Shown here one piece after another: positions 6,013 to 27,121 of a stretch of DNA of 64,000 bases (the first letter of the stretch is position 1; every line of letters begins with the position of its first letter). The notes under the pieces are model-generated. The model did not search any database. It worked only from the letters and a program-made list of their open reading frames with translations, and was not told where the DNA came from. Both the position numbers and the translations under genes were made by a program. Source of the stretch: Actinomycetota bacterium (GTDB lineage: Bacteria > Actinomycetota > Geothermincolia > Geothermincolales > RBG-13-55-18); NCBI GenBank assembly GCA_014360655.1, contig JACIXC010000008.1:62001-126000 (forward strand), written 5' to 3'.

Positions 6013-8682
6013 GTGGAAGAGGAGATGACGGCGACCAAGTACGTATACGACTTCGAAGAGGGCGACGCCAGCATGAAAAGGCTCCTGGGCGGCAAGGGTT
6101 CCAACCTGGCCGAGATGACCAGGCTGGGACTGCCCGTCCCCCCCGGCTTCACCATAAGCACCGAGGCGTGCAACATCTTTTCACGCGAGGGAAAGTACCC
6201 CGACGGGCTGCAGGAGGAGGTGGAGGAACACCTGCGGCGCCTGGAGGAGAAGATGGGCAAGCGGCTCGGGGACAAGGATGACCCCCTGCTGGTCTCCGTG
6301 CGCTCCGGCGCCGCCATCTCCATGCCGGGTATGATGGACACCGTCCTCAACCTAGGCCTGAACGACGAGTCGGTCAGGGGACTGGCCGCGCAGACCGGCG
6401 ACGAGCGCTTCGCCTACGACGCCTACCGCCGCTTCATCCAGATGTTCGCGGACATCGTCATGGGGGTGGAGCGCGACCTCTTCGAGGAGGAGATAAACCG
6501 CAGGAAGCAGGAGAGGGGCGTTTCCCTGGACGTGGAGCTCACCGCCGAGGACTGGAAGGACCTGGTGGAGAAGTTCAAGGCCATCGTGCGCGAGAAGGCG
6601 GGCAGGGATTTCCCCTCCGACCCGCGCGAGCAGCTCGACCTGGCCATCCGGGCCGTCTTCGGTTCCTGGAACAACCCCCGTGCCATAACCTACCGCAAGC
6701 AGTACGACATCCCCGAAGACCTGGGAACGGCGGTCAACGTGCAGACCATGGTCTTCGGTAACAAGGGAGATGACTCCGCCACCGGGGTGTGCTTCACCCG
6801 CAACCCCTCCACGGGCGAGGCGCGGCGCTTCGGAGAGTACCTGGTCAACGCCCAGGGCGAGGACGTGGTGGCGGGGATACGCACCCCCAGGAGCCTCGAG
6901 GAGCTGGAGCGGGAGATGCCCGACCTCTACCGGCAGTTGACCGGGGTGATGGACAGGCTGGAGAAGCATTACCGGGACATGCAGGACATAGAGTTCACCA
7001 TCGAGCAGGGCAAGCTCTACATGCTGCAGACCCGCACCGGTAAGCGCACTGCCGCGGCCGCCCTGAAGATCGCGGTGGACATGGTCGAGGAGGGCCTCAT
7101 CAGCAAGGAGGAGGCGGTGTCGCGGGTGCAGCCCGACCAGCTCGACCAGCTGCTGCACCCCCGCCTCGATCCCGACGCCACTTACGACGTCATCGCCAAG
7201 GGTCTGCCTGCATCGCCGGGGGCGGCGGTGGGCGAGGTGGTCTTCGACGCCGACACGGCGGAGGTGAGGGGCTCGCGGGGCGAGAAGGTCATCCTTGTGC
7301 GCTGGGAGACAACCCCTGACGACATACACGGCATCATCAACGCGCAGGGCGTGCTCACCAGCCACGGGGGCATGACCAGCCACGCGGCGGTGGTAGCCCG
7401 CGGCATGGGCAAGCCCTGCATCTGCGGCGCGGAGGCGGTGAAGATCAACCAGGCCGAGCGCATCTTCGAGGTGAACGGCCTGGTGGTGCGGGAAGGCGAC
7501 GTCATCACCATCGACGGCACCTCGGGACGGGTGATCCTGGGCGAGGTCGGGCTCATCGAGCCCAAGGTGGACGTGAACCTGGAGAAGATCCTCACCTGGG
7601 CGAGCGAGATACGCAAGCTGGGGGTGCGCACCAACGCCGACACCCCGGAGGACGCGCGCCGCGCCCGCGACTTCGGCGCCGAGGGTATCGGCCTTTGCCG
7701 CATCGAGCACATGCTCATCGGGGAGGACCGCCTGCCCATCGTGCGCCGCATGATCCTGGCCGAGAACGAGGAGAAGCGGGAGGAAGCCCTCATGGAGCTG
7801 GAGCCCCTCCTGCGGCGCGACTTCGAGAAGATCCTGGAGATCATGGATGGATTCCCGGTCACCATCCGCCTGCTTGACCCTCCCCTGCACGAGTTCCTCC
7901 CCAACCTGGCCGACCTGCGCGTGGAGCTGGAGAGGCTGAAGCACGTCCCCGGCGAGAGGGAGGAGTACGAGGCGAAGGAGAAGCTGCTGGCACGGGTGCG
8001 CGCGGAGTCCGAGGCCAATCCCATGCTGGGCCTGCGCGGGTGCCGCGTGGGGTGCACCATGGGCGGCGTGACCGAGGCGCAGGTGCGCGCGATCATCAAG
8101 GCCGCCTGCGACCTCAAGAAGCAGGGCAAGGACCCCAGGGTGGAGATCATGATCCCCCTGGTCGCCTTCCGCAGGGAGCTGGAGATCGAGAGGGAAAAGG
8201 TGGTCAAGGTGGCCGAGGGCGTCATCGAGGCCATGGAGGTGGAGCTGGAATACCTGGTGGGAACGATGATCGAGCTGCCCCGAGCCGCCCTTACCGCCGA
8301 CAAGATCGGGGAGGTGGCGGACTTCTTCTCCTTCGGCACCAACGACCTCACGCAGACCACCCTCGGCTTCAGCCGGGACGACGCGGAAGCCAAGTTCCTC
8401 CCCCTCTACCTCGAGCAGGGCATCCTCACCGACAACCCCTTCCAGACCCTGGACGTGGAGGGCGTGGGGAAGCTGGTACGCATGGCCTGCGAGCTGGCGC
8501 AGAGCGTTAATCCCGGCATCAAGCTGGGCATATGCGGCGAGCACGGGGGAGACCCCCGCAGCATCCGCTTCTGCCACGACGTCGGCCTCCATTACGTGAG
8601 CTGCTCCCCCTTCCGGGTGCCGGTGGCCATCCTGGCGGCCGCCCATGCCGCCCTGGGAGGGGTGCAGGACGCCACGAAGTAG
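6013..8682 (+). CDS. ppdK: pyruvate, phosphate dikinase
   Basis: This enzyme interconverts pyruvate, ATP and phosphate with phosphoenolpyruvate, AMP and diphosphate, and in anaerobes often works for glycolysis or gluconeogenesis. The 889-residue protein has the N-terminal nucleotide-binding domain (GGKGSNLAEM, RSGAAISMPGMMDTVLNLGL), the phosphohistidine domain with GGMTSHAAVVARGMGKPC near residue 456, and the C-terminal PEP/pyruvate TIM barrel (GTNDLTQTTLGFSRDDAE and GICGEHGGDP). GTG at 6013 is used; ATG at 6025 is an equally plausible start. It is transcribed alone, 108 bases after glyS, inside a block whose order (glyQ, glyS, ppdK, dgt, dnaG, rpoD) is common in anaerobic Gram-positives. Confidence 0.96.
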   Translation: MEEEMTATKYVYDFEEGDASMKRLLGGKGSNLAEMTRLGLPVPPGFTISTEACNIFSREGKYPDGLQEEVEEHLRRLEEKMGKRLGDKDDPLLVSVRSGAAISMPGMMDTVLNLGLNDESVRGLAAQTGDERFAYDAYRRFIQMFADIVMGVERDLFEEEINRRKQERGVSLDVELTAEDWKDLVEKFKAIVREKAGRDFPSDPREQLDLAIRAVFGSWNNPRAITYRKQYDIPEDLGTAVNVQTMVFGNKGDDSATGVCFTRNPSTGEARRFGEYLVNAQGEDVVAGIRTPRSLEELEREMPDLYRQLTGVMDRLEKHYRDMQDIEFTIEQGKLYMLQTRTGKRTAAAALKIAVDMVEEGLISKEEAVSRVQPDQLDQLLHPRLDPDATYDVIAKGLPASPGAAVGEVVFDADTAEVRGSRGEKVILVRWETTPDDIHGIINAQGVLTSHGGMTSHAAVVARGMGKPCICGAEAVKINQAERIFEVNGLVVREGDVITIDGTSGRVILGEVGLIEPKVDVNLEKILTWASEIRKLGVRTNADTPEDARRARDFGAEGIGLCRIEHMLIGEDRLPIVRRMILAENEEKREEALMELEPLLRRDFEKILEIMDGFPVTIRLLDPPLHEFLPNLADLRVELERLKHVPGEREEYEAKEKLLARVRAESEANPMLGLRGCRVGCTMGGVTEAQVRAIIKAACDLKKQGKDPRVEIMIPLVAFRRELEIEREKVVKVAEGVIEAMEVELEYLVGTMIELPRAALTADKIGEVADFFSFGTNDLTQTTLGFSRDDAEAKFLPLYLEQGILTDNPFQTLDVEGVGKLVRMACELAQSVNPGIKLGICGEHGGDPRSIRFCHDVGLHYVSCSPFRVPVAILAAAHAALGGVQDATK

Positions 8683-8746
8683 GGGAGAGACCTCCCGGCG
8701 CCGGGCGGCGGGGGCCGCACGCGGTTCCCGCGCGAGGCGCGAAAGG

Positions 8747-8776
8747 GGGAGCCGCCTTTCGGGCGGGCGGCTTCCC
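8747..8776 (+). terminator. putative terminator after ppdK
   Basis: A GC-rich hairpin has left arm GGGAGCCGCC (8747-8756) and right arm GGCGGC-T-TCCC (8766-8776), with a nine-base loop and a short GTTT after it. The U-tract is weak. Confidence 0.45.
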
Positions 8777-8817
8777 GTTTCCCGCGGGCAGGATGACGTC
8801 ACCCGGCGCTACAATCA

Positions 8818-8860
8818 TCGTGGAAAGGTCATGGAAAGGTCATGGAAAGGTCATGGAAGG
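8818..8860 (+). repeat. 11-bp tandem repeat, almost four copies
   Basis: The unit TCATGGAAAGG repeats at 8829, 8840 and 8851, preceded by a partial copy (GTGGAAAGG) and with a one-base deletion in the last. The period is close to one helical turn. Confidence 0.85.
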
Positions 8861-9017
8861 ATCGTGGGAGAGGTCGGCTGCGTCGCGTACCCGGTTCGCG
8901 TTACGGCGGCGTCCCGTTGCGTGAAAGCCAGGGGCGGCGGTCCCGACCGTAGACCGGCGTGGTCTGAACGCTTGCGGCATTACCACCGTGCCGCGGGCGG
9001 GGAAGGAGTGATGCGAG

Positions 9018-9617
9018 GTGTACATACTGGCCGTCAACGGAAGCCCCAACCGCGAGGGTAATACCGCCTTCCTCCTGCAGGAGGTGCTGGCGGCCGCGCG
9101 GGAGGAGGGAGTGGATGGTAGATTATCCCATGTGATGGACGCCCTGAAGGGGCAGAAGAACCCCTTCTGCATGGCCTGTTCCAGTCCCTGCAAGGAGGCC
9201 TGCCACAGCAAGGACGCCGGCCTCAAGGAGCTGTGCGACGCCCTGGAGGGGGCGGCCGCGGTGGTGCTGGGAAGCCCCGTCTATTTCGGCACGGTTTCCG
9301 CCCAGCTCAAGGCGTTCTGGGACAAGACGCGCGCCATACGTTCCCGTCGCACGCTGGTTGGAAAGCCGGCGGCGGCGGTGAGCGTGGGGGCGGCCCGTTT
9401 CGGCGGCCAGGAGACCACCGTCAAGGCTTTGCACGACATGCTCCTCATCCAGGGCATGAGCCTGGTGGGGGAGGGAACGGCGGATGACGACGCGGGCCAC
9501 CAGGGAGTGTGCGGCCAGAAACCGGTCGCGGAGGACTCCTTCGCCCTCGAGAGGGCGCGCATACTGGGTAAGCGCCTGGCGCGGGAGGTGAAGAAGGCGA
9601 GGGGCGCCGCGGAATAG
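9018..9617 (+). CDS. NADPH-dependent FMN reductase family flavoprotein
   Basis: This 199-residue protein has the flavodoxin-like fold of NADPH-dependent FMN reductases and iron-sulfur flavoproteins. It shows the FMN phosphate loop NGSPNREGNTAFLL at the N-terminus and GSPVYFGTVSAQLKAFWDK at the second flavin-binding loop. Cysteines in CMACSSPCKEACHS (near residues 54-64) are where iron-sulfur flavoproteins place their cluster, so it may be an electron carrier rather than a simple reductase. GTG follows GGAAGGAG by nine bases. It is alone between ppdK and dgt, and its partner is unknown. Confidence 0.8.
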   Translation: MYILAVNGSPNREGNTAFLLQEVLAAAREEGVDGRLSHVMDALKGQKNPFCMACSSPCKEACHSKDAGLKELCDALEGAAAVVLGSPVYFGTVSAQLKAFWDKTRAIRSRRTLVGKPAAAVSVGAARFGGQETTVKALHDMLLIQGMSLVGEGTADDDAGHQGVCGQKPVAEDSFALERARILGKRLAREVKKARGAAE

Positions 9618-9692
9618 GACGCGGGGTCGCGGCGCGAGGGACGGCGCGGCGGAGAGGAGGCGCGGACGCGCTTGAGGTGAGGAGTCTCATAT

Positions 9693-10697
9693 ATGGGCGT
9701 GCGAGAGGACATAGAGCGCTGGGAAGAGGAGTGGCTTTCCCCCCGCGCCACGCGCAGCCGCGAGAGCAGGGGCCGCGAGCGCATGGAGGAGCCGGACCCG
9801 CTGCGCACCTGCTTCATGCGGGACCGCGACCGTATAGTGCACAGCAAGTCCTTCCGCCGCCTCAAGCACAAGACCCAGGTCTTCCTGGCTCCGGAGGGCG
9901 ACCATTACCGCACCCGCCTCACCCATACCCTTGAGGTGAGCCAGATCTCCCGCACCATCGCGCGCGCCCTGCGCCTCAACGAGGACCTCACCGAGGCCAT
10001 CGCCCTGGGGCATGACCTGGGCCACACCCCCTTCGGGCACATGGGGGAGGAGGCCTTCCGCGACCTCACCCCCACCCCCTTCCGCCATAACGAGCAGAGC
10101 CTGCGGGTGGTGGAGAAGCTGGAGTACGACGGGAAGGGGTTGAACCTCACCTGGGAGGTGAGGGACGGTATCCTCAACCACACGGGCAAGAGCCCCCTTC
10201 CAGCCACCCTCGAGGGAAGGGTGGTGCGTATAGCCGACCGCATCGCCTACGTCAACCACGATATAGACGATGCCGTGCGCGCGGGCATCCTCAGCGAGGA
10301 GGAACTTCCCCGTGCCGCCCTGGAGGTACTGGGCCGACGGCACAACCAGCGCATTGACACCCTGGTGAGGGACATGGTGGAGGCGAGCGGCGACGGGGAG
10401 GACATCCGCCAGAGCGAGGAGGTGGCGGCGGCCCTGGACGAACTGCGCGATTTCCTCTTCGAGAGGGTTTACGTGGGCTCGGTCGCCAAGCAGGAGGAGG
10501 ACAAGGCCATCATGGTCCTGCGCAGCCTCTTCCACTTCTACCTCGAGCACCCGGAGGAGATGCCCGAGGAATTCCGCCGCGGAGAGGATGACCTGAGGGT
10601 GAGGGTCTGCGACTACGTGGCCGGCATGACGGACCGCTACGCCATGCGCAAATACCACGAGCACTTCCTGCCCCACGTCTGGGTGGGGGACCTTTAA
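9693..10697 (+). CDS. dgt: deoxyguanosinetriphosphate triphosphohydrolase-like protein
   Basis: HD-superfamily dNTP triphosphohydrolase of 334 residues, expected to split dGTP or other dNTPs into deoxynucleoside and triphosphate and so adjust dNTP pools. The metal-binding HD motif is intact: RTRLTHTLEVSQISRTIA and LGHDLGHTPFGHMGEEA. It is the short dGTPase-like type found next to dnaG in many bacteria. The ATG is preceded by GAGGTGAGGAG, and dnaG starts 20 bases downstream, so the two are probably one transcript. Confidence 0.93.
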   Translation: MGVREDIERWEEEWLSPRATRSRESRGRERMEEPDPLRTCFMRDRDRIVHSKSFRRLKHKTQVFLAPEGDHYRTRLTHTLEVSQISRTIARALRLNEDLTEAIALGHDLGHTPFGHMGEEAFRDLTPTPFRHNEQSLRVVEKLEYDGKGLNLTWEVRDGILNHTGKSPLPATLEGRVVRIADRIAYVNHDIDDAVRAGILSEEELPRAALEVLGRRHNQRIDTLVRDMVEASGDGEDIRQSEEVAAALDELRDFLFERVYVGSVAKQEEDKAIMVLRSLFHFYLEHPEEMPEEFRRGEDDLRVRVCDYVAGMTDRYAMRKYHEHFLPHVWVGDL

Positions 10698-20718: not shown

Positions 20719-20821
20719 TCATTTGGTGCCTTTGGCTACACCCCGGTGCCTCGCCACGTGGGTTGCGGCGCCCGGCCCCATTTGATGCATCAACTTCATC
20801 AAGGGGCTCTCTTGTGTGTGT

Positions 20822-20955
20822 CGTTGCGAGCGGAGCGAAGCAATCTCACCACGAGGAACCCCTTTTAAACGTTGTCGCGAGGAGCGGTTTAAACGTCGTT
20901 GCGAGCGTGATTCTTTGTCATCGCGAGGAGCGGAGCGACGAAGCGATCTCCTCCA
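20822..20955. repeat. cluster of dispersed GCGAGGAGCGGAGCGA-type repeats
   Basis: Several related copies occur: CGTTGCGAGCGGAGCGAAGC at about 20823, GTCGCGAGGAGCGG near 20875, CGTTGCGAGCGTGA near 20897, and CATCGCGAGGAGCGGAGCGA near 20930. The pattern matches a widespread family of short non-coding dispersed repeats in bacterial genomes whose translation gives RCERSEAIS-like peptides. Confidence 0.7.
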
Positions 20956-21076
20956 TACCTTGCCGCCCCCCGGCCACCGTGACCGGGCCGGTTTATATCG
21001 CTGCCACGGCGGGAATAATACGGGAAAAAGCCGGAAACTACTTTCCAAAAGGAACACGGGGAAAGGAGGAAGACCT

Positions 21077-21358
21077 ATGCTCTCGGAGATACCCAAGGAC
21101 CTTTCGAAGATGAGCCAGAAGGAGCTTGACCGCGAGATCTGCCGCGTGGGCATGATCGCCGAGCTGGATGCCGTCAACCTCTACGAGCAACTCGCGGCCA
21201 TGACCGACAACCAGCTCATCAAGAAGGTGCTCCTGGACATAGCCAAGGAGGAGAAGACCCACGTGGGCGAGTTCCAGGCGCTGCTCCTCATGGAGGACGA
21301 GGAGCAGGTAAAGGAGCTCGCGGAGGGCAAGGAGGAGGTCGAGGAGCTAAAGGGCTGA
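21077..21358 (+). CDS. small ferritin-like/rubrerythrin-type diiron protein
   Basis: A 93-residue protein with AAAGGAGG before its ATG. It is a two-helix half-ferritin: MIAELDAVNLYEQLA (Glu29, Glu37) and AKEEKTHVGEFQALL (Glu58, Glu59, His62) supply diiron ligands, and two subunits should form one four-helix bundle. The sequence resembles the ferritin-like domain fused to the N-terminus of the Pyrococcus encapsulin shell protein and its free-standing relatives. No shell gene follows and no encapsulin-targeting tail is evident. It lies beside the peroxiredoxin and flavodoxin genes, which suggests iron or peroxide handling. Confidence 0.8.
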   Translation: MLSEIPKDLSKMSQKELDREICRVGMIAELDAVNLYEQLAAMTDNQLIKKVLLDIAKEEKTHVGEFQALLLMEDEEQVKELAEGKEEVEELKG

Positions 21359-21666
21359 GCGCGGGTGACCACGTGCGTTCTCTACACGCAAGGAATCCCT
21401 TCACCGCGGTGGATAACATGCCGTGGACGTTCACTAAGACGCGCTGTCGGGGCTATTATGGATCCGCTTCATGCGTTAAAGCCCTTCAAGGTAAGAGCGG
21501 GTTCCTGGAACCCGCCAGCAGCGTAAGTTCCTGAAATCCGGCGGGGGTGATTGTTTTACGTTGATGATCACGGCACCTTTGCGGCCGTATCGTGTTTCGC
21601 GTGGACTATCCATCCGGAGAGGAAGAAGCAGGGGAGCAGCGTCGTTTTTGGGGAGGTGAGAAGGTT
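21359..21666. other. intergenic region with a hairpin
   Basis: No gene. A perfect hairpin GCGGGTTC-CTG-GAACCCGC occupies 21497-21515 without a U-tract; it could be a weak terminator or part of the peroxiredoxin leader. Confidence 0.4.
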
Positions 21667-22389
21667 ATGCCGGTCAGGAAAGAGCCCAAGGACCAGTGCG
21701 TTACGCCGGCCAAGGGCATAATCACGGAGGAGGCGAAGGCCTCCGGGGAAAAGGAACAGGCGGCGCAACCGCGGGGAGGTGGGCAGGTGAGGGCGCAGGT
21801 GGGCAAGCCGGCGCCGGACTTCGAGGCCAGCGCCTTCGTGGCCGGCGGCTTCAAGAACGTCAGGCTCTCCGACTACAGGGGGAAGTGGGTGGTCCTCTGT
21901 TTCTACCCGGGTGATTTCACCTTCGTATGACCCACGGAACTGTCGGCAGTTGCCGTCAAGTACGGGGAACTCAAGAAGCTGGGCGTGGAAGTGCTGGCCA
22001 TGAGCGTGGACAGCAGGTTCAGCCACAAGATATGGCAGGAGGAGGAGCTCTCCAAGATGGTCAAGGGCGGCGTACCCTTCCCCATGCTCAGCGATGCCGG
22101 CGGCCGCATAGGCAGGGCCTACGGCGTTTACGACGAGGAGGCCGGCGTGAACATCCGCGGGCGCTTTCTCATCGATCCCGAGGGGATCATCCAGGCCATG
22201 GAGGTGATGACGCCCCCCGTGGGACGCAACGTCGCGGAGTTGATCAGGCAGGTCAAGGCCTTCCAGCACGTGGCGAAGACGGGAGAGGTGATGCCGTCCG
22301 GGTGGCAGCCGGGCAAGCCCACCCTGAAGCCCGGGCCGGACCTGGCGGGCAAGGTGTGGAAGGTCTGGAAACCGGACGCAGCCTTTTAA
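21667..22389 (+). CDS. selenocysteine-containing peroxiredoxin (AhpC/Prx family)
   Basis: The frame is interrupted only by TGA at 21928-21930, exactly where the peroxidatic cysteine of FTFVCPTE should be: the DNA reads [19 protein letters not shown], and the same frame continues to TAA at 22389. Read as selenocysteine (residue 88) it gives an intact 240-residue peroxiredoxin reducing H2O2 and alkyl peroxides. Downstream family blocks are complete ([50 protein letters not shown]). The resolving cysteine of AhpC (GEVCPA) is Met here (GEVMPS). The ATG has GGGAGGTGAG upstream; GTG at 21787 with GGGGAGGT is an alternative giving 200 residues. Annotation pipelines would split it in two. Confidence 0.9.
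21928..21956 (+). promoter_or_regulatory. UGA-Sec codon and candidate bacterial SECIS hairpin
   Basis: The TGA is followed by a stem-loop: left arm ACGGAACTG (21934-21942), loop TCGG, right arm CAGTT-G-CCGT (21947-21956) with one bulged G. Bacterial SECIS elements lie just downstream of the UGA inside the coding region. The loop here is somewhat closer to the UGA than usual. Confidence 0.5.
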
Positions 22390-22553
22390 GCCCCATGCCT
22401 ATCCCTCGCGTACCCGCGAGGCGCCGTTCCCATCTCCTTCGCCCGGCGACCCCCGCCGACCGGGGGACATGGTAATACATGGCAAACGCGAGAGCCGCGT
22501 GGTGATTCCCGCGTAAGGGAAAAGCGGGTTCCCGCGAGGTAAGGGAGGGAATG

Positions 22554-23039
22554 ATGAGAGGCATGGTCGTTTACAAGAGCTGGTGGGGAAGCTGCAAGAG
22601 GATCGCCGAGGCGATCGGAGAGGGCCTGGGCGAGGCCGGGCACGAGGTGCAGGTGGTCGCGGTGGAGGATGCGGGCAAGCCGGATCCCTCCCTGGACTTC
22701 GTGGTCATCGGTGCCGCCACGAGGTGGCCCGGCGCCTGGCCGAAGATCAAGCGTTACGCGAAAAAATTTACCGGGAAGGGTTTCGCCGGCAAGCCCTTCG
22801 CGACCTTCAGCACGGGGGCCACCGTGAACGACGAGGAGCCCCTCACGCAGGCCTCCGAGGTGCTCTACGGGATCCTCGAGGCGCGCGGCCTGGTTCCACT
22901 CGCGCCGCCCTTCAAGGCCGCCATCGAGGGATACAAGCCGCCCGGGAAGGGGGAGGACAGGGGCACGCTCCCCGAGGGCGAGGTGGCGCGCGCCCGGGAG
23001 TTCGGGCGGGAACTGGGCGGGAAACTTTCAAGCCGCTAG
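22554..23039 (+). CDS. flavodoxin-family protein
   Basis: 162 residues from the second of two adjacent ATGs (GGGAGG five bases upstream; ATG at 22551 is the other choice). The N-terminal FMN phosphate loop VVYKSWWGSCKRIAEAIGEG and the second loop VVIGAATRWPGAWPKIKRY show a flavodoxin fold that carries one FMN and acts as a small electron carrier. It follows the selenocysteine peroxiredoxin by 164 bases in the same direction. In this stress cluster it might supply electrons to rubrerythrin, superoxide reductase or the peroxiredoxin; that is inference. Confidence 0.82.
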   Translation: MRGMVVYKSWWGSCKRIAEAIGEGLGEAGHEVQVVAVEDAGKPDPSLDFVVIGAATRWPGAWPKIKRYAKKFTGKGFAGKPFATFSTGATVNDEEPLTQASEVLYGILEARGLVPLAPPFKAAIEGYKPPGKGEDRGTLPEGEVARAREFGRELGGKLSSR

Positions 23040-23167
23040 TCCCGCGGGTTCGTTCGCCTGAGGCATACGCGGGATAGGCCTACGTTTGACCGCAGCGGAG
23101 GTCGGGTTAAACGGAAGCTTGCCCTGCAGGGTCAACAGGCCGCGGGGAAGAAATGTGAAGATAAAAA

Positions 23168-23186
23168 GCCCCAAGAACCGGGGGGC
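23168..23186 (-). terminator. minus-directed terminator-like hairpin left of the AbiE-like cassette
   Basis: On the minus strand GCCCC and GGGGC pair around a nine-base loop and are followed by TTTTTAT, a good intrinsic terminator pointing left. No minus-strand gene lies just to its right, so it may be a relic. Confidence 0.45.
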
Positions 23187-23255
23187 GTTAAAGCCCTTGG
23201 AAGACCTACCCCCACTTATTATCCTGGAGGAGGCCGGATAGAGACGACTTGCCTT

Positions 23256-23315
23256 AAGTTTCAGTTTATGTTATAGTTTCAGCATAATGCTGAAACTAAT
23301 ATATTAAGTGAAACT
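23256..23315 (+). promoter_or_regulatory. palindromic operator and promoter of the AbiE-like pair
   Basis: A near-perfect 23-base palindrome lies at 23275-23297: AGTTTCAGCAT, one base, ATGCTGAAACT. Outlying half-sites occur at 23256 (AAGTTTCAG) and 23306 (AAGTGAAACT). A -10-like TATATT at 23300-23305 adjoins it, 13 bases before the ATG. AbiEi antitoxins are known to repress their own operon through inverted repeats. Confidence 0.65.
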
Positions 23316-23318
23316 CAA

Positions 23319-24437
23319 ATGAAGGAAAAAGAGATCCGGGAAAAAATCCTGAAGGAAGTCAAAGAGGTTTTAGGCGGGACCGGCTTCTTGGAGGTCATCC
23401 GAGTAGTTGAAAGCCCGACCATTAATAATGAAAAGACTGGAGTCGGGTTATTCTGTCCCGATTTCGCGATAGGGGTAAGGTTAGCTTCCGGAAAGACCAT
23501 CGATCTCCTGTTTGAAATAAAAACAAATGCCCAACCTCGTTTCGTTCGGTCGGCTGCTCTAACCATGAGGGATGCCTGCAGCAAGCTACGGAATTCGTAT
23601 TGTGTCCTCGGTGCGCCGTATTTTTCTGAAGCATCAAAGAAAATATGCCGCGAGTATGGCATAGGTTATATTGACCTCACTGGAAATTCGTTTCTCAACT
23701 TCGAAAGCGCGTTCATTAAGACGGAGGGAAAACCCAATCCGTTTGTCAGTACCAGGCCGCTGAGAAACCTGTTCTCCCCGAAATCAACCAGGATACTCAG
23801 GGTTCTTTTAGAAAACCCAAAGCAGGAATGGTATGTGAAAGACATGGCCAAAGAGGCAAAGGTAAGCTTGGGGCAAGCCTCCAATGTTAAGCAGCGACTT
23901 CTGGATTTCGAGTACGCGGTGGAAGTGCCTGGCCAAAAACAGAAGAAGATCCGCCTGGCTGATCCGGAGAAGCTGCTTAAAGACTGGGCTGATAACTATA
24001 GCTATTTGGATAACCGACTCTTCAAGTACTATTCTCTTGATAATCCAAGGAAAATCGAGGAGAGGATAGTATCTTCCTGCGCAGATATCGGAGTGAAGTG
24101 CGCTCTCACGCTCACATCGGCGGATGCGCGCTTGACTCGTTTCCTGAGAGGTGCAGTAAGGTCTTACGTCTATGTTGAGAAACCATTTGAACCTGCGACC
24201 TCGCGCCTCGGCCTTAACGAAATTGATTTAGGCCTTAAGGAAGTTGATTCAGGAGAGAACGTTACTATAATGGTCCCCTATGATGAAGGGGTTTTCTATG
24301 CGCTTCAGGAAATCGATAACCTGAATATTGTTTCAGATATTCAACTCTATCTCGATCTACGGGGTTATAAGCAGCGAGGGAAAGATGCGGGCGAATTCTT
24401 GCTTGAGCAGAGGATCAAGAAAAAATGGCAAATATAG
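23319..24437 (+). CDS. AbiEi-like antitoxin/regulator with putative N-terminal PD-(D/E)xK-type domain
   Basis: 372 residues. Residues 1-140 resemble a restriction-endonuclease-like fold: PDFA (Asp48) and FEIK (Glu66-Ile-Lys68) are spaced as in PD-(D/E)xK nucleases, followed by YGIGYIDLTGNSFLNF. Residues 155-215 are a winged helix (STRILRVLLENPKQEWYVKD, SLGQASNVKQRLLDF). The C-terminal part ends IVSDIQLYLDLRGYKQRGKD, typical of AbiEi-type type IV antitoxins. It overlaps the next gene by 13 bases, the usual antitoxin-first order. Base composition is lower in GC than in flanking genes, which suggests transfer. Nuclease activity is not established; the domain may be a regulatory relic. Confidence 0.75.
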   Translation: MKEKEIREKILKEVKEVLGGTGFLEVIRVVESPTINNEKTGVGLFCPDFAIGVRLASGKTIDLLFEIKTNAQPRFVRSAALTMRDACSKLRNSYCVLGAPYFSEASKKICREYGIGYIDLTGNSFLNFESAFIKTEGKPNPFVSTRPLRNLFSPKSTRILRVLLENPKQEWYVKDMAKEAKVSLGQASNVKQRLLDFEYAVEVPGQKQKKIRLADPEKLLKDWADNYSYLDNRLFKYYSLDNPRKIEERIVSSCADIGVKCALTLTSADARLTRFLRGAVRSYVYVEKPFEPATSRLGLNEIDLGLKEVDSGENVTIMVPYDEGVFYALQEIDNLNIVSDIQLYLDLRGYKQRGKDAGEFLLEQRIKKKWQI

Positions 24438-25252
24438 AAGATTATGATGAATACAGCGTTAAGAGGTGCTTCACGGTATTGATAGAACTATTGACGATAC
24501 TGGGAGAATATCGCGATAACCTCGTATTGGTTGGTGGTTGGGTTGCTAAGCTGATTCTTGAGGGAGCTGAAGAGCACCACATCGGCACCACGGACGTAGA
24601 TCTTGCAGTTGACTTCCATAATATCCCTAATACAACATATGAGACTATTGTCAGGCTGTTGTCAGAACGAGGATATCGACAAGATGACAATCAACCGTAC
24701 AAATTCTTCCGTAAGTTGGATGATGGTATGGAGGTCGAAATCGATTTCCTGGCAGGAGAATACGGAGGGACGGGCAGGAGCAGAAGACACCAAAGAGCCC
24801 AAGACCTCCAGGCAAGAAAAGCGAGAGGCGCCGACCTTGTCTTTGACAATTTCATTACACTTACCATAAAGGGCGAGTTGCCTAATGGGGCGAAGAACGA
24901 AATCTCTCTCAAGGTAGCAGGCGTAGTGCCCTTCTTGGTGATGAAAGGAATGGCGATCTGGGACAGATATGACGAGAAAGATTCTTATGATATTTGCTAT
25001 ACGATCAGGAATTATCCGGGTGGGCTGCACGAGCTGGCGATGGTTTTTAAGCCACATCTGGGAAACCGACTGATCTTAGAGGGGCTACGGAAAATGCGGG
25101 CGAGATTCAAGGAAATCGACGGTATTGGGCCGGCAGCCTATGCGGATTTCCTTCTCGCTATAGACAGTGAAGACAGGCAACTTCTGATAAGAGACGCTTA
25201 CGAGAGAGTCAACGCTTTTCTTGACGAATTAGGCGTAGAACCGTACGAGTAA
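24425..25252 (+). CDS. AbiEii-like nucleotidyltransferase (putative toxin)
   Basis: 275 residues with the polymerase-beta-type nucleotidyltransferase signature: LVLVGGWVAKLILEG (Gly37-Gly38) then GTTDVDLAVDF with Asp57 and Asp59, and a third acidic residue at Asp107 in EVEIDFLAG. AbiEii toxins of this superfamily stop growth by transferring nucleotides to cellular targets, in some relatives to tRNA. A lysine-containing helix (VPFLVMKGMAIWDRYDEKDSYDI) matches the AbiEii family. The start overlaps the regulator gene and GAGGAT precedes the ATG. Phage defence by abortive infection is the likely role, inferred from the family. Confidence 0.78.
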   Translation: MANIEDYDEYSVKRCFTVLIELLTILGEYRDNLVLVGGWVAKLILEGAEEHHIGTTDVDLAVDFHNIPNTTYETIVRLLSERGYRQDDNQPYKFFRKLDDGMEVEIDFLAGEYGGTGRSRRHQRAQDLQARKARGADLVFDNFITLTIKGELPNGAKNEISLKVAGVVPFLVMKGMAIWDRYDEKDSYDICYTIRNYPGGLHELAMVFKPHLGNRLILEGLRKMRARFKEIDGIGPAAYADFLLAIDSEDRQLLIRDAYERVNAFLDELGVEPYE

Positions 25253-25356
25253 GCAATGGATTGAATATTAAACTTCACCTGCGCCGGATAAATGCACAAA
25301 AACTTACAATAATTCTCCCCCCTGCCATCCCGATAACAAGTCGATTCAAGCTAGAA

Positions 25357-25378
25357 AAGCCGGGTAGCCACCCGGCTT
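25357..25378 (-). terminator. bidirectional-looking hairpin right of the AbiE-like cassette
   Basis: A perfect nine-base stem, AAGCCGGGT-AGCC-ACCCGGCTT. On the minus strand it is followed by TTCT, and on the plus strand by CTATTG, so it terminates better leftward but may also end the AbiE-like transcript. Confidence 0.5.
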
Positions 25379-25503
25379 CTATTGCTCTGGGGGGCGTTAA
25401 GGGATTTGGACCGGGGCACTCTCTTCAGTGAGTGGGCACCGTAAATGCTCCCCCGGGCGCCGAAGCCCTGCAGGTCGTGTCACCCGGTTTCGGGCAAGAG
25501 GCC

Positions 25504-25881
25504 TCAGGCGGATTTCCAGAGCCCGTGCAGGTTGCAGTACTCGCGGGCGGTGATGCCTTCCCCGGGCACGTCGAACTTGCCCTCGGGGGCGATGCCCGGC
25601 TTGAGGAAGATGCGGTAGCTCCGCTCGCCGGCGATGACCTGCACCCACTCGATGTAATGGTCATCCTGCATGGGATGGGCCACCTCGCCCACCTTGACCA
25701 GGATGCCGTCGCCGCTTACCTCCACCACGGGCACGTGCTTCTCCACCGCCGCGTCCACGGTGTTTTCCACCTGCAGGACCATGGGCTGCCCGCAGCAAAC
25801 CAGCTCTCCCTGTCCCGCGTGCATGACCTCCACGATGTTGCCGCATATCTCGCACTTGTAGATCTGCAGTCTCTCGGTCAT
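25504..25881 (-). CDS. dfx: desulfoferrodoxin (superoxide reductase)
   Basis: This 125-residue protein reduces superoxide to hydrogen peroxide without making oxygen, the strategy of anaerobes. The N-terminal desulforedoxin domain binds an Fe(Cys)4 centre through Cys10, Cys13, Cys29 and Cys30 (CEIC and VCCG). The neelaredoxin domain carries the catalytic iron ligands His49, His69, His75, Cys116 and His119 (EKHVP, AHPM, DHYIEW, CNLHGLW). GGAGGAGG precedes the ATG. It lies downstream of rubrerythrin in the same direction, which would remove the peroxide made. GGTAAT repeats near 25930-25960 may mark its own promoter. Confidence 0.95.
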   Translation of the reverse strand: MTERLQIYKCEICGNIVEVMHAGQGELVCCGQPMVLQVENTVDAAVEKHVPVVEVSGDGILVKVGEVAHPMQDDHYIEWVQVIAGERSYRIFLKPGIAPEGKFDVPGEGITAREYCNLHGLWKSA

Positions 25882-26006
25882 CTTCCTCCTCCTTCAAGGT
25901 CTACGCTTCCCATTACGCTTCCCATTACCTGACGGTCCATAATTACCATATATTACCAATAACTCTTCCGCTCCCGGCGCCGGGGGCGGCCCCGGCGCCG
26001 TGGCGT

Positions 26007-26510
26007 TCAGAAGGCCACGAACTTGTCCCGGGAGGCGCCGCAGATGGGGCACTTCTCGGGGGCTTCGCCCTCGCGGGTGTGCCCGCAGACGCTGCAGATC
26101 TGGATGGTGCCCACCTGCACGTCCTCGCCCCTGTCCACCGCCTCCTTGGCTTTCCTGTACCACTCGGCGTGTATCTTCTCCGCCTCCAGGGCGTAATGGG
26201 TGCTGCGCACCGCCCCCGCCTCGTCCTGCAGCTTTGCCGTGGCGTTGAACACGGGGTACATCTCGTTTATCTCGTAGGTCTCGCCGTTTATGCAGGTCTG
26301 TATGTTTTCGGAGGGGGAGCGCAGCCCTCCCAGGACCTGCAGGTGGTTCCCGGCGTGCACCCTCTCCGCGTAGGCGATGGCCCGGAACATCCTGGCCAGC
26401 TCGCCCAGTCCCTCCGCCTCCGCCCTGTCCGCGAAGAGCTGGTACTTCATGTGCGCCATGCTCTCCCCGGCGAAGGCGTCGTTCAGGAATTTCTCCGTCA
26501 TCTCCCGCAT
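26007..26510 (-). CDS. rbr: rubrerythrin
   Basis: Rubrerythrin reduces hydrogen peroxide in the anaerobe cytoplasm using electrons from rubredoxin or flavodoxin. The 167-residue protein has an N-terminal ferritin-like diiron domain (Glu16 in AFAGESMAHMKY; AYAERVH with Glu49 and His52; LEAEKIHAEWY) and a C-terminal rubredoxin-like Fe(Cys)4 domain (Cys139, Cys142, Cys154, Cys157: CSVCG and CPICG). AAGGAGG is six bases before the ATG at 26510; a second ATG at 26516 is too close to that site. It precedes desulfoferrodoxin. Confidence 0.95.
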   Translation of the reverse strand: MREMTEKFLNDAFAGESMAHMKYQLFADRAEAEGLGELARMFRAIAYAERVHAGNHLQVLGGLRSPSENIQTCINGETYEINEMYPVFNATAKLQDEAGAVRSTHYALEAEKIHAEWYRKAKEAVDRGEDVQVGTIQICSVCGHTREGEAPEKCPICGASRDKFVAF

Positions 26511-27121
26511 GCTCATACCTCCTTGCCGTCTCCTTTTATTCTCTTCCCGCCCCCTCACAGCGCCCCCTCTCGGCGCTTGTTCCGATTCTTGCCCGTCTTC
26601 TCTCTTCCGGGGCGGGGGTTCCACCTCGATATGATTCCCTGCCGCAAACGCCGTGAAACACGGTGGCGGAGCGCACGGCTGACATAGCTCATATCACTCA
26701 CCCCCAGTCCCGCGATAGCATAATGCACGCTTTCGCCCCGCCGCGCGCAGGTTTTTCGCTCTCTATCACTCTCCCGTCCCGCGGTAACATCCGCCCCCCG
26801 CTTTCGCCAGCCGTGATCGCCAGCTTTTCGATCTCGCCCCGGCCACCTTACGGCGTCCCCGAAGAAGGGGATGACGGGCCGGCCTCGTCCCGCCTCACGC
26901 GGTTTTGCAGGCGTGACTTGCATCGGTGCTGTTTAAGGCGCGCATAGCGTGGGAAACATGGCATTGCTGGGCACATGCCGCGTCTTCGACGGGCATGCGC
27001 GGATGGCCGGCATTCCCGGTGGGAAAGACCTGCGGGGCCGGCTGACGGCAGGACGCCTGCGAGAGGAAAGCTCTGGGAATCGCGCACGGAAGGGGCGCGG
27101 ACGGGAAGAGCAGGAGAGGTC
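26511..27121. other. long intergenic region, no gene recognised
   Basis: This is the divergent space between rubrerythrin and the next plus-strand gene. Short open frames on both strands lack domain character and good ribosome sites. It should hold promoters for both directions, but none stands out. Confidence 0.35.

Follow-up and report, generated by a model that had tools for sequence, protein, structure and literature searches.

The window, a stretch of 64,000 nucleotides from an actinobacterial genome that is close to Candidatus Solincola judging from the relatives of its antitoxin, contains two genes, P0001 and P0002, whose ORFs share 13 bp and lie where the initial annotation had placed them (Table 1). 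The block that carries them (positions 23180–25410) has a GC content of 46.6% compared with 64.7% elsewhere, which is approximately 8 standard deviations below windows of the same size and bears out the initial impression that the pair is AT-richer than its surroundings. Around the insert, positions 20816–26624 form an oxidative-stress cluster (rubrerythrin-like protein, peroxiredoxin, flavodoxin, desulfoferrodoxin, and rubrerythrin), in which the peroxiredoxin gene seems to be split over two frames (approximately 21592–22389). Defense genes were not found among the typed neighbors of the window copy, which encode oxidative-stress, protease, and Fe-S proteins. A PADLOC search returned no match for P0002 and only a weak match of P0001 to PDC-M05A (E 0.0015), and an Rfam search of positions 22500–25900 returned no match, the only Rfam match among the loci searched being a tRNA in the homologous locus L031.

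Table 1. Genes, protein domains, and DNA elements of the locus; positions are counted from the first nucleotide of the window.
Feature	Positions	Strand	Remarks
Left boundary repeat, core GGGGGGCGTTAAAGCCCTTGGAAGACCT	23180..23237	+	Resembles antisense 3' end of tRNA-Val; block shared between genera begins exactly here
Likely promoter, TTGCCT -17- TATAGT	23249..23277	+	TG ahead of -10; 9/12 consensus, alone not above chance
Likely operator, TAGTTTCAGCAT-A-ATGCTGAAACTA	23274..23298		Perfect 12-bp arms; overlaps -10 box
P0001, antitoxin/regulator gene, COG4861/AbiEi_2 type	23319..24437	+	372 aa; PF09952, E 1.9e-7
Predicted N-terminal PD-(D/E)XK-fold domain (P0001 residues 1-145)	23319..23753	+	Asp48, Glu66-Ile-Lys68, Asp119-x-x-Gly122-Asn123; from predicted fold, homologue profiles, conservation
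Predicted winged helix-turn-helix (P0001 residues ~150-213)	23766..23957	+	From model secondary structure, Foldseek matches to MarR/ArsR, and HTH_IclR/MarR Pfam matches of homologues
C-terminal AbiEi_2 domain (P0001 residues 212-366)	23952..24416	+	PF09952 profile match
P0002, nucleotidyltransferase toxin gene	24425..25252	+	275 aa; Gly37-Gly38, Asp57-x-Asp59, Glu105/Asp107, Lys174, Lys185-Asp186
Hairpin AAGCCGGGT-AGCC-ACCCGGCTT, likely terminator	25349..25386	+	Within repeated right end, near right edge
Right boundary repeat, GGGGGGCGTTAAGGGATTTG	25356..25410	+	Equals tRNA-Val antisense 3' end GGTGGGCGTTAAGGGATTTG but for one base

The claim that the two genes form an AbiE-like pair, with a winged helix and an AbiEi-like C-terminus in the first protein and an AbiEii-type nucleotidyltransferase as the second, agrees with the profile searches, with the modeled structure of the first protein, and with the motifs of the second. 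The C-terminal part of P0001 scored 32 bits against PF09952 (AbiEi_2; gathering cut-off 21), the sole AbiEi family of Pfam that the protein matched, and 70 of its 72 aligned homologues matched the same family at E ≤ 0.01. A winged helix is predicted directly ahead of this domain in an AlphaFold2 model built from 72 aligned sequences (full model: pLDDT 91.4, pTM 0.85), and a Foldseek search with the whole model brought up MarR/ArsR folds for it, with no match below E 1e-3. P0002 has the nucleotidyltransferase motifs intact and carries both the hG[G/S]...DhD pattern and the lysine motif of AbiEii/DUF1814 proteins; its residues G37, G38, D57, D59, and K174 are invariant in the toxin alignment (A6). 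P0002 itself passed no Pfam cut-off, matching PF12281 weakly and below its cut-off and PF08843 (AbiEii) not at all; of its homologues, 26 of 47 matched PF08843 at E ≤ 0.1 (best, 5.4e-8).

Residues 1–145 of P0001, in which the initial annotation had guessed an extra nuclease-like domain, are covered by no Pfam model when the single sequence is searched, and PDB and NCBIfam searches with single sequences gave nothing useful. Structure prediction and fold comparison of this region returned a restriction-like PD-(D/E)XK core. Modeled alone (pLDDT 84.9, pTM 0.79), the domain is predicted to consist of a helix (residues 3–21), three strands (25–31, 49–54, and 60–67), a second helix (73–89), a strand (93–99), a third helix (104–112), and a last strand (116–119), an order whose alpha-beta-beta-beta-alpha-beta core matches that of PD-(D/E)XK enzymes. 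The motif falls on strands 2 and 3 of the predicted structure, with Asp48 just ahead of strand 49–54 and Glu66 and Lys68 at the end of strand 60–67. In the Foldseek search against the PDB, NucS/EndoMS structures came first (2vld, 5gke, and 5gkj; E 4e-4 to 8e-4, probability 1.00). PaqCI, Card1, Can2, BbvCI, and other members of the superfamily came next, and TM-scores were modest, approximately 0.37–0.54. Approximately 9 PD-(D/E)XK families of Pfam were matched weakly and independently by N-terminal fragments of the homologues: NucS_C by 8 of 68 fragments (best, 6e-4), and HSDR_N, PDDEXK_3, PDDEXK_9, TnsA, Mrr_cat, SfsA, and Hjc among the others. Because the fold matches, the independent weak profiles of the homologues, and a motif position kept over 80 homologues coincide, the likeness is more than chance, and the PD-(D/E)XK fold of residues 1–145 is well supported as a prediction.

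Among the 397 genomes searched within the phylum, 48 encode relatives of the antitoxin, as do 53 plasmids and 3 viral contigs, and none was found among 50,697 phage records; the 80 antitoxin loci collected span many bacterial phyla as well as archaea. The N-terminal region is present in 80 of 84 aligned antitoxins, the rest being cut by contig ends, broken in frame, or late-starting. Where the contig extends far enough, a toxin ORF nearly always lies directly 3' of the antitoxin gene, usually with an overlap of a few bases, and for at least 65 loci the nucleotidyltransferase motif is present in this second gene. In RefSeq, examples on plasmids are named 'type IV toxin-antitoxin system AbiEi family antitoxin' for the first protein and 'nucleotidyl transferase AbiEii/AbiGii toxin family protein' for the second. 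The PD-(D/E)XK-fold domain is thus a standing part of the PF09952 antitoxins sampled from both bacteria and archaea, and the gene next door nearly always encodes the same toxin; what the initial annotation had read as an addition is correct in fold and motif placement but is not peculiar to P0001.

The conservation of the presumed active site was scanned in the closer alignment A3, alignment A1 being too diverse. Asp48 is present in 71 of 80 homologues (89%), Glu66 in 60 (75%), and Lys68 in 50 (62%), with Arg at position 68 in 13 more. A strict D-E-K triad occurs in 41/80 and a lenient one (D/E, D/E/Q, K/R) in 46/80, and in the other 34 it is broken. Homologues lacking the D...ExK residues, which the initial annotation had named as evidence against its reading, are therefore common and include a protein 69% identical to P0001 (L034), in which the triad reads D-G-E; other variants are A-E-K (L036), D-T-R (L038), and D-E-I (L057). 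On a tree built from antitoxin residues 150–372, which leaves out the N-terminal domain, the intact or broken label switches at least 17 times (mean for shuffled labels, 26), and many tips with a broken triad adjoin intact ones. The switch count alone gives no direction, and loss is the simpler reading given a nuclease fold that carries a nuclease motif. P0001 and its three nearest relatives have the full triad, as do distant bacteria and archaea and two plasmid homologues, a survival that suggests selection for catalysis where the triad is kept. The most conserved motif of the domain, above the nuclease triad, is D-x-x-G-N just past the core (residues 119–123, positions 23673–23687), with D in 79/80, G in 80/80, and N in 78/80 homologues and all three residues at 100% in the proteins with a broken triad. 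Together with it, C110 and P73-R74 are the most conserved residues of the domain, none of them catalytic, D48 apart. By contrast with the triad, G37, G38, D57, and D59 of the toxin are invariant in 66 of 66 neighboring toxins. The family thus retains the N-terminal domain but has often lost the cutting site within it. Two antitoxin homologues of 523 aa (L078, 1077–2648, and L082, 961–2532), approximately 150 residues longer at the C-terminus, have a broken triad (D-G-S) and a normal toxin gene next to them.

Upstream of P0001, the -10 sequence TATA(G/T)T is conserved in 5 of 5 close copies. The palindrome that overlaps it sits in a longer inverted repeat of 81% (23254–23318) and is kept in L031–L034, with a few changes in L034, so that five genomes including that of the window copy have it. 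Autorepression has been shown for classical AbiEi (PMC3985639). Because the conserved palindrome overlaps the -10 box, its position points to autorepression of the classical kind, in which the winged helix would bind there.

The block is shared with other genera from repeat to repeat, at 87% in L031 (23180–25401) and 84% in L032 (23180–25386). The gap between the peroxiredoxin and superoxide-reductase genes, 3.1 kb in the window, is approximately 0.2–0.4 kb in several genomes of the family that lack the pair at this place, so the block was likely inserted between oxidative-stress genes, although the flavodoxin gene may explain part of the difference. Apart from small changes, the core of the boundary repeat has the sequence of the tRNA-Val 3' end in antisense, and the repeat adjoins tRNA-Val in L031, L032, L033, and L183. 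Between 1 and 6 copies are present in 9 of 15 genomes of the family, often in the same orientation and spaced 0.1–2.3 kb apart, and in relatives the genes between copies encode ParE/RHH, MazE-like, and Fic proteins. The repeat resembles an attachment site of tRNA origin at which mobile toxin–antitoxin cassettes would insert. Several arrays abut a tRNA-Val gene. Tyrosine recombinases exist in these genomes, but the array contigs that were examined carry neither these nor any integrase that could be found.

These arrays have a cassette-like layout, with a repeat of approximately 60–70 bp between toxin–antitoxin modules of several types (AbiE-like, RHH/ParE, MazE-like/Fic, and others) and a core, TGGTGGGCGTTAAGG(GATTTG), equal to the antisense 3' end of tRNA-Val; besides the window (23180–23237 and 25356–25410) they were seen in L178 (G000:C1:352993, 353793), L031, L032, L034, L154, L166, and L183. 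An integron was considered for the boundary repeats and is not claimed, since no classical attC layout was recognizable by eye, the core matches the antisense 3' end of tRNA-Val, and the tyrosine recombinases lie off the array contigs examined. In L151 (approximately 1500–1720; G030:C160:29539, 29731), two copies in opposite orientation lie approximately 170 bp apart, with a palindromic GGTGGGCGTTAACGCCCACC between them, and so form head-to-head units. In L032, a putative group II intron starts at approximately 8070 with GTGTGCCGGGCATG, right after the terminator hairpin of the pair and the TTCTATTGCTT of the repeat, and contains an ORF of 469 aa (8475–9884).

We favor the reading, with a probability of about 0.72, that the block is a mobile toxin–antitoxin operon of the COG4861-COG4849 type whose antitoxin keeps a nuclease-derived N-terminal domain for a function that, in many members of the family, needs no cutting. 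P0002 would be a DNA-polymerase-beta-type nucleotidyltransferase that arrests growth, by analogy with MenT and AbiEii, and would probably add nucleotides to tRNA ends, extension of the acceptor end being what the MenT analogy suggests. MenT toxins act by modifying the acceptor stems of tRNAs (PMC11375011). MenT2, whose partner Rv0837c is a COG4861 protein, had no detectable activity in earlier work according to that article, so the toxicity of the COG4849-type class is not assured. P0001 would serve as antitoxin and autorepressor at once, with a winged helix that binds the palindrome overlapping the -10 box and an AbiEi_2 domain that counteracts the toxin, and its N-terminal domain may have been kept for binding DNA or a ligand, for dimerization, or for contact with the toxin. 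Across the family this domain is probably more often a binding or regulatory part than an active nuclease; in P0001 itself it most likely serves for binding, dimerization, or sensing, and catalysis is possible in lineages with an intact triad.

A narrower form of this reading, possible but tentative, makes the domain a module of nuclease origin for specificity or sensing, which would recognize a DNA or nucleotide ligand and thereby release the toxin, the triad being kept in some lineages for binding a ligand or metal and not for cutting. Its top-conserved residues outside the catalytic site fit such a role, as does the presence of Can2 and Card1 among the structural neighbors, since in both of these a PD-(D/E)XK domain is part of a ligand-controlled protein. 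The initial annotation had instead proposed that the pair would be a composite defense system if the nuclease-like domain is active; in such a system an intact domain would be a nuclease that cuts DNA or RNA, for example at phage infection, from one operon with the nucleotidyltransferase. D48, E66, and K68 are indeed present and correctly placed in the predicted fold, the D-E-K triad recurs in distant homologues and on plasmids, and the structural neighbors of the domain are real nucleases, but we consider this reading unlikely: the triad is broken in many homologues, often beside intact relatives, while the toxin is unaffected, the typed neighbors of the window copy include no defense genes, and an active nuclease within an antitoxin would presumably carry a cost if it were not under tight control. 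Similarly improbable, in our view, is a bifunctional antitoxin whose domain has regulated nuclease activity in the lineages that keep D-E-K, with active and inactive forms switching repeatedly in evolution; if true, one two-gene cassette would combine a tRNA-modifying toxin with a nuclease-armed regulator. It is very improbable that the likeness to PD-(D/E)XK enzymes is accidental and that residues 1–145 form an unrelated alpha/beta domain. The modest TM-scores, the whole-model Foldseek result, and the lack of an N-terminal Pfam match for the single sequence would fit that explanation, but nearly all high-probability matches of the domain are PD-(D/E)XK enzymes, different homologues matched several PD-(D/E)XK families, and topology agrees with motif placement.

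AbiE-like modules are reported to be among the commonest prokaryotic defense systems (PMC11375011, citing Tesson 2022). The COG4861 branch with its nuclease-derived domain offers naturally dead and intact versions as a ready paired set for studying the role of the domain, and it cautions that a D...ExK motif is not proof of a nuclease. In the searchable open-access literature, we found no description of a PD-(D/E)XK domain in COG4861 antitoxins, and we do not claim priority for this identity of their N-terminal half.

The window pair belongs to an already known, widespread toxin–antitoxin type. COG4861-COG4849 has been described as a second AbiE-like pair (Dy et al. 2014, PMC3985639), its COG4861 regulator sharing no sequence identity with AbiEi of the classical COG5340 kind, and PF09952 has been equated with COG4861 (PMC7251935). 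Pairs of this type, such as Rv0837c-Rv0836c (MenA2-MenT2), resemble the window pair in having a PF09952 antitoxin and a regulator gene ahead of the nucleotidyltransferase gene, although the sequence similarity of the characterized members (PF09952 with a DUF1814-type toxin) is low. Classical AbiE of Streptococcus and Lactococcus (COG5340 AbiEi and COG2253 AbiEii) is likewise a two-gene operon with a winged-helix autorepressor, a palindromic operator, and a pol-beta nucleotidyltransferase. However, the winged helix of COG5340 AbiEi is N-terminal, whereas that predicted for P0001 lies mid-protein, after the PD-(D/E)XK domain; P0001 thus lacks the classical AbiEi architecture and agrees with COG4861/PF09952 in profile and gene order, and neither the AbiEi structure 6Y8Q nor Rv2827c (1ZEL) appeared among its profile matches and top-50 fold matches. 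The closest known counterpart of the N-terminal domain is the C-terminal domain of NucS/EndoMS (PF01939), which shares the PD-(D/E)XK core and is both its best fold match and its commonest Pfam echo. NucS/EndoMS is a DNA mismatch endonuclease without a winged helix or an antitoxin domain, whereas the P0001-type domain is fused to both and has often lost its active site.
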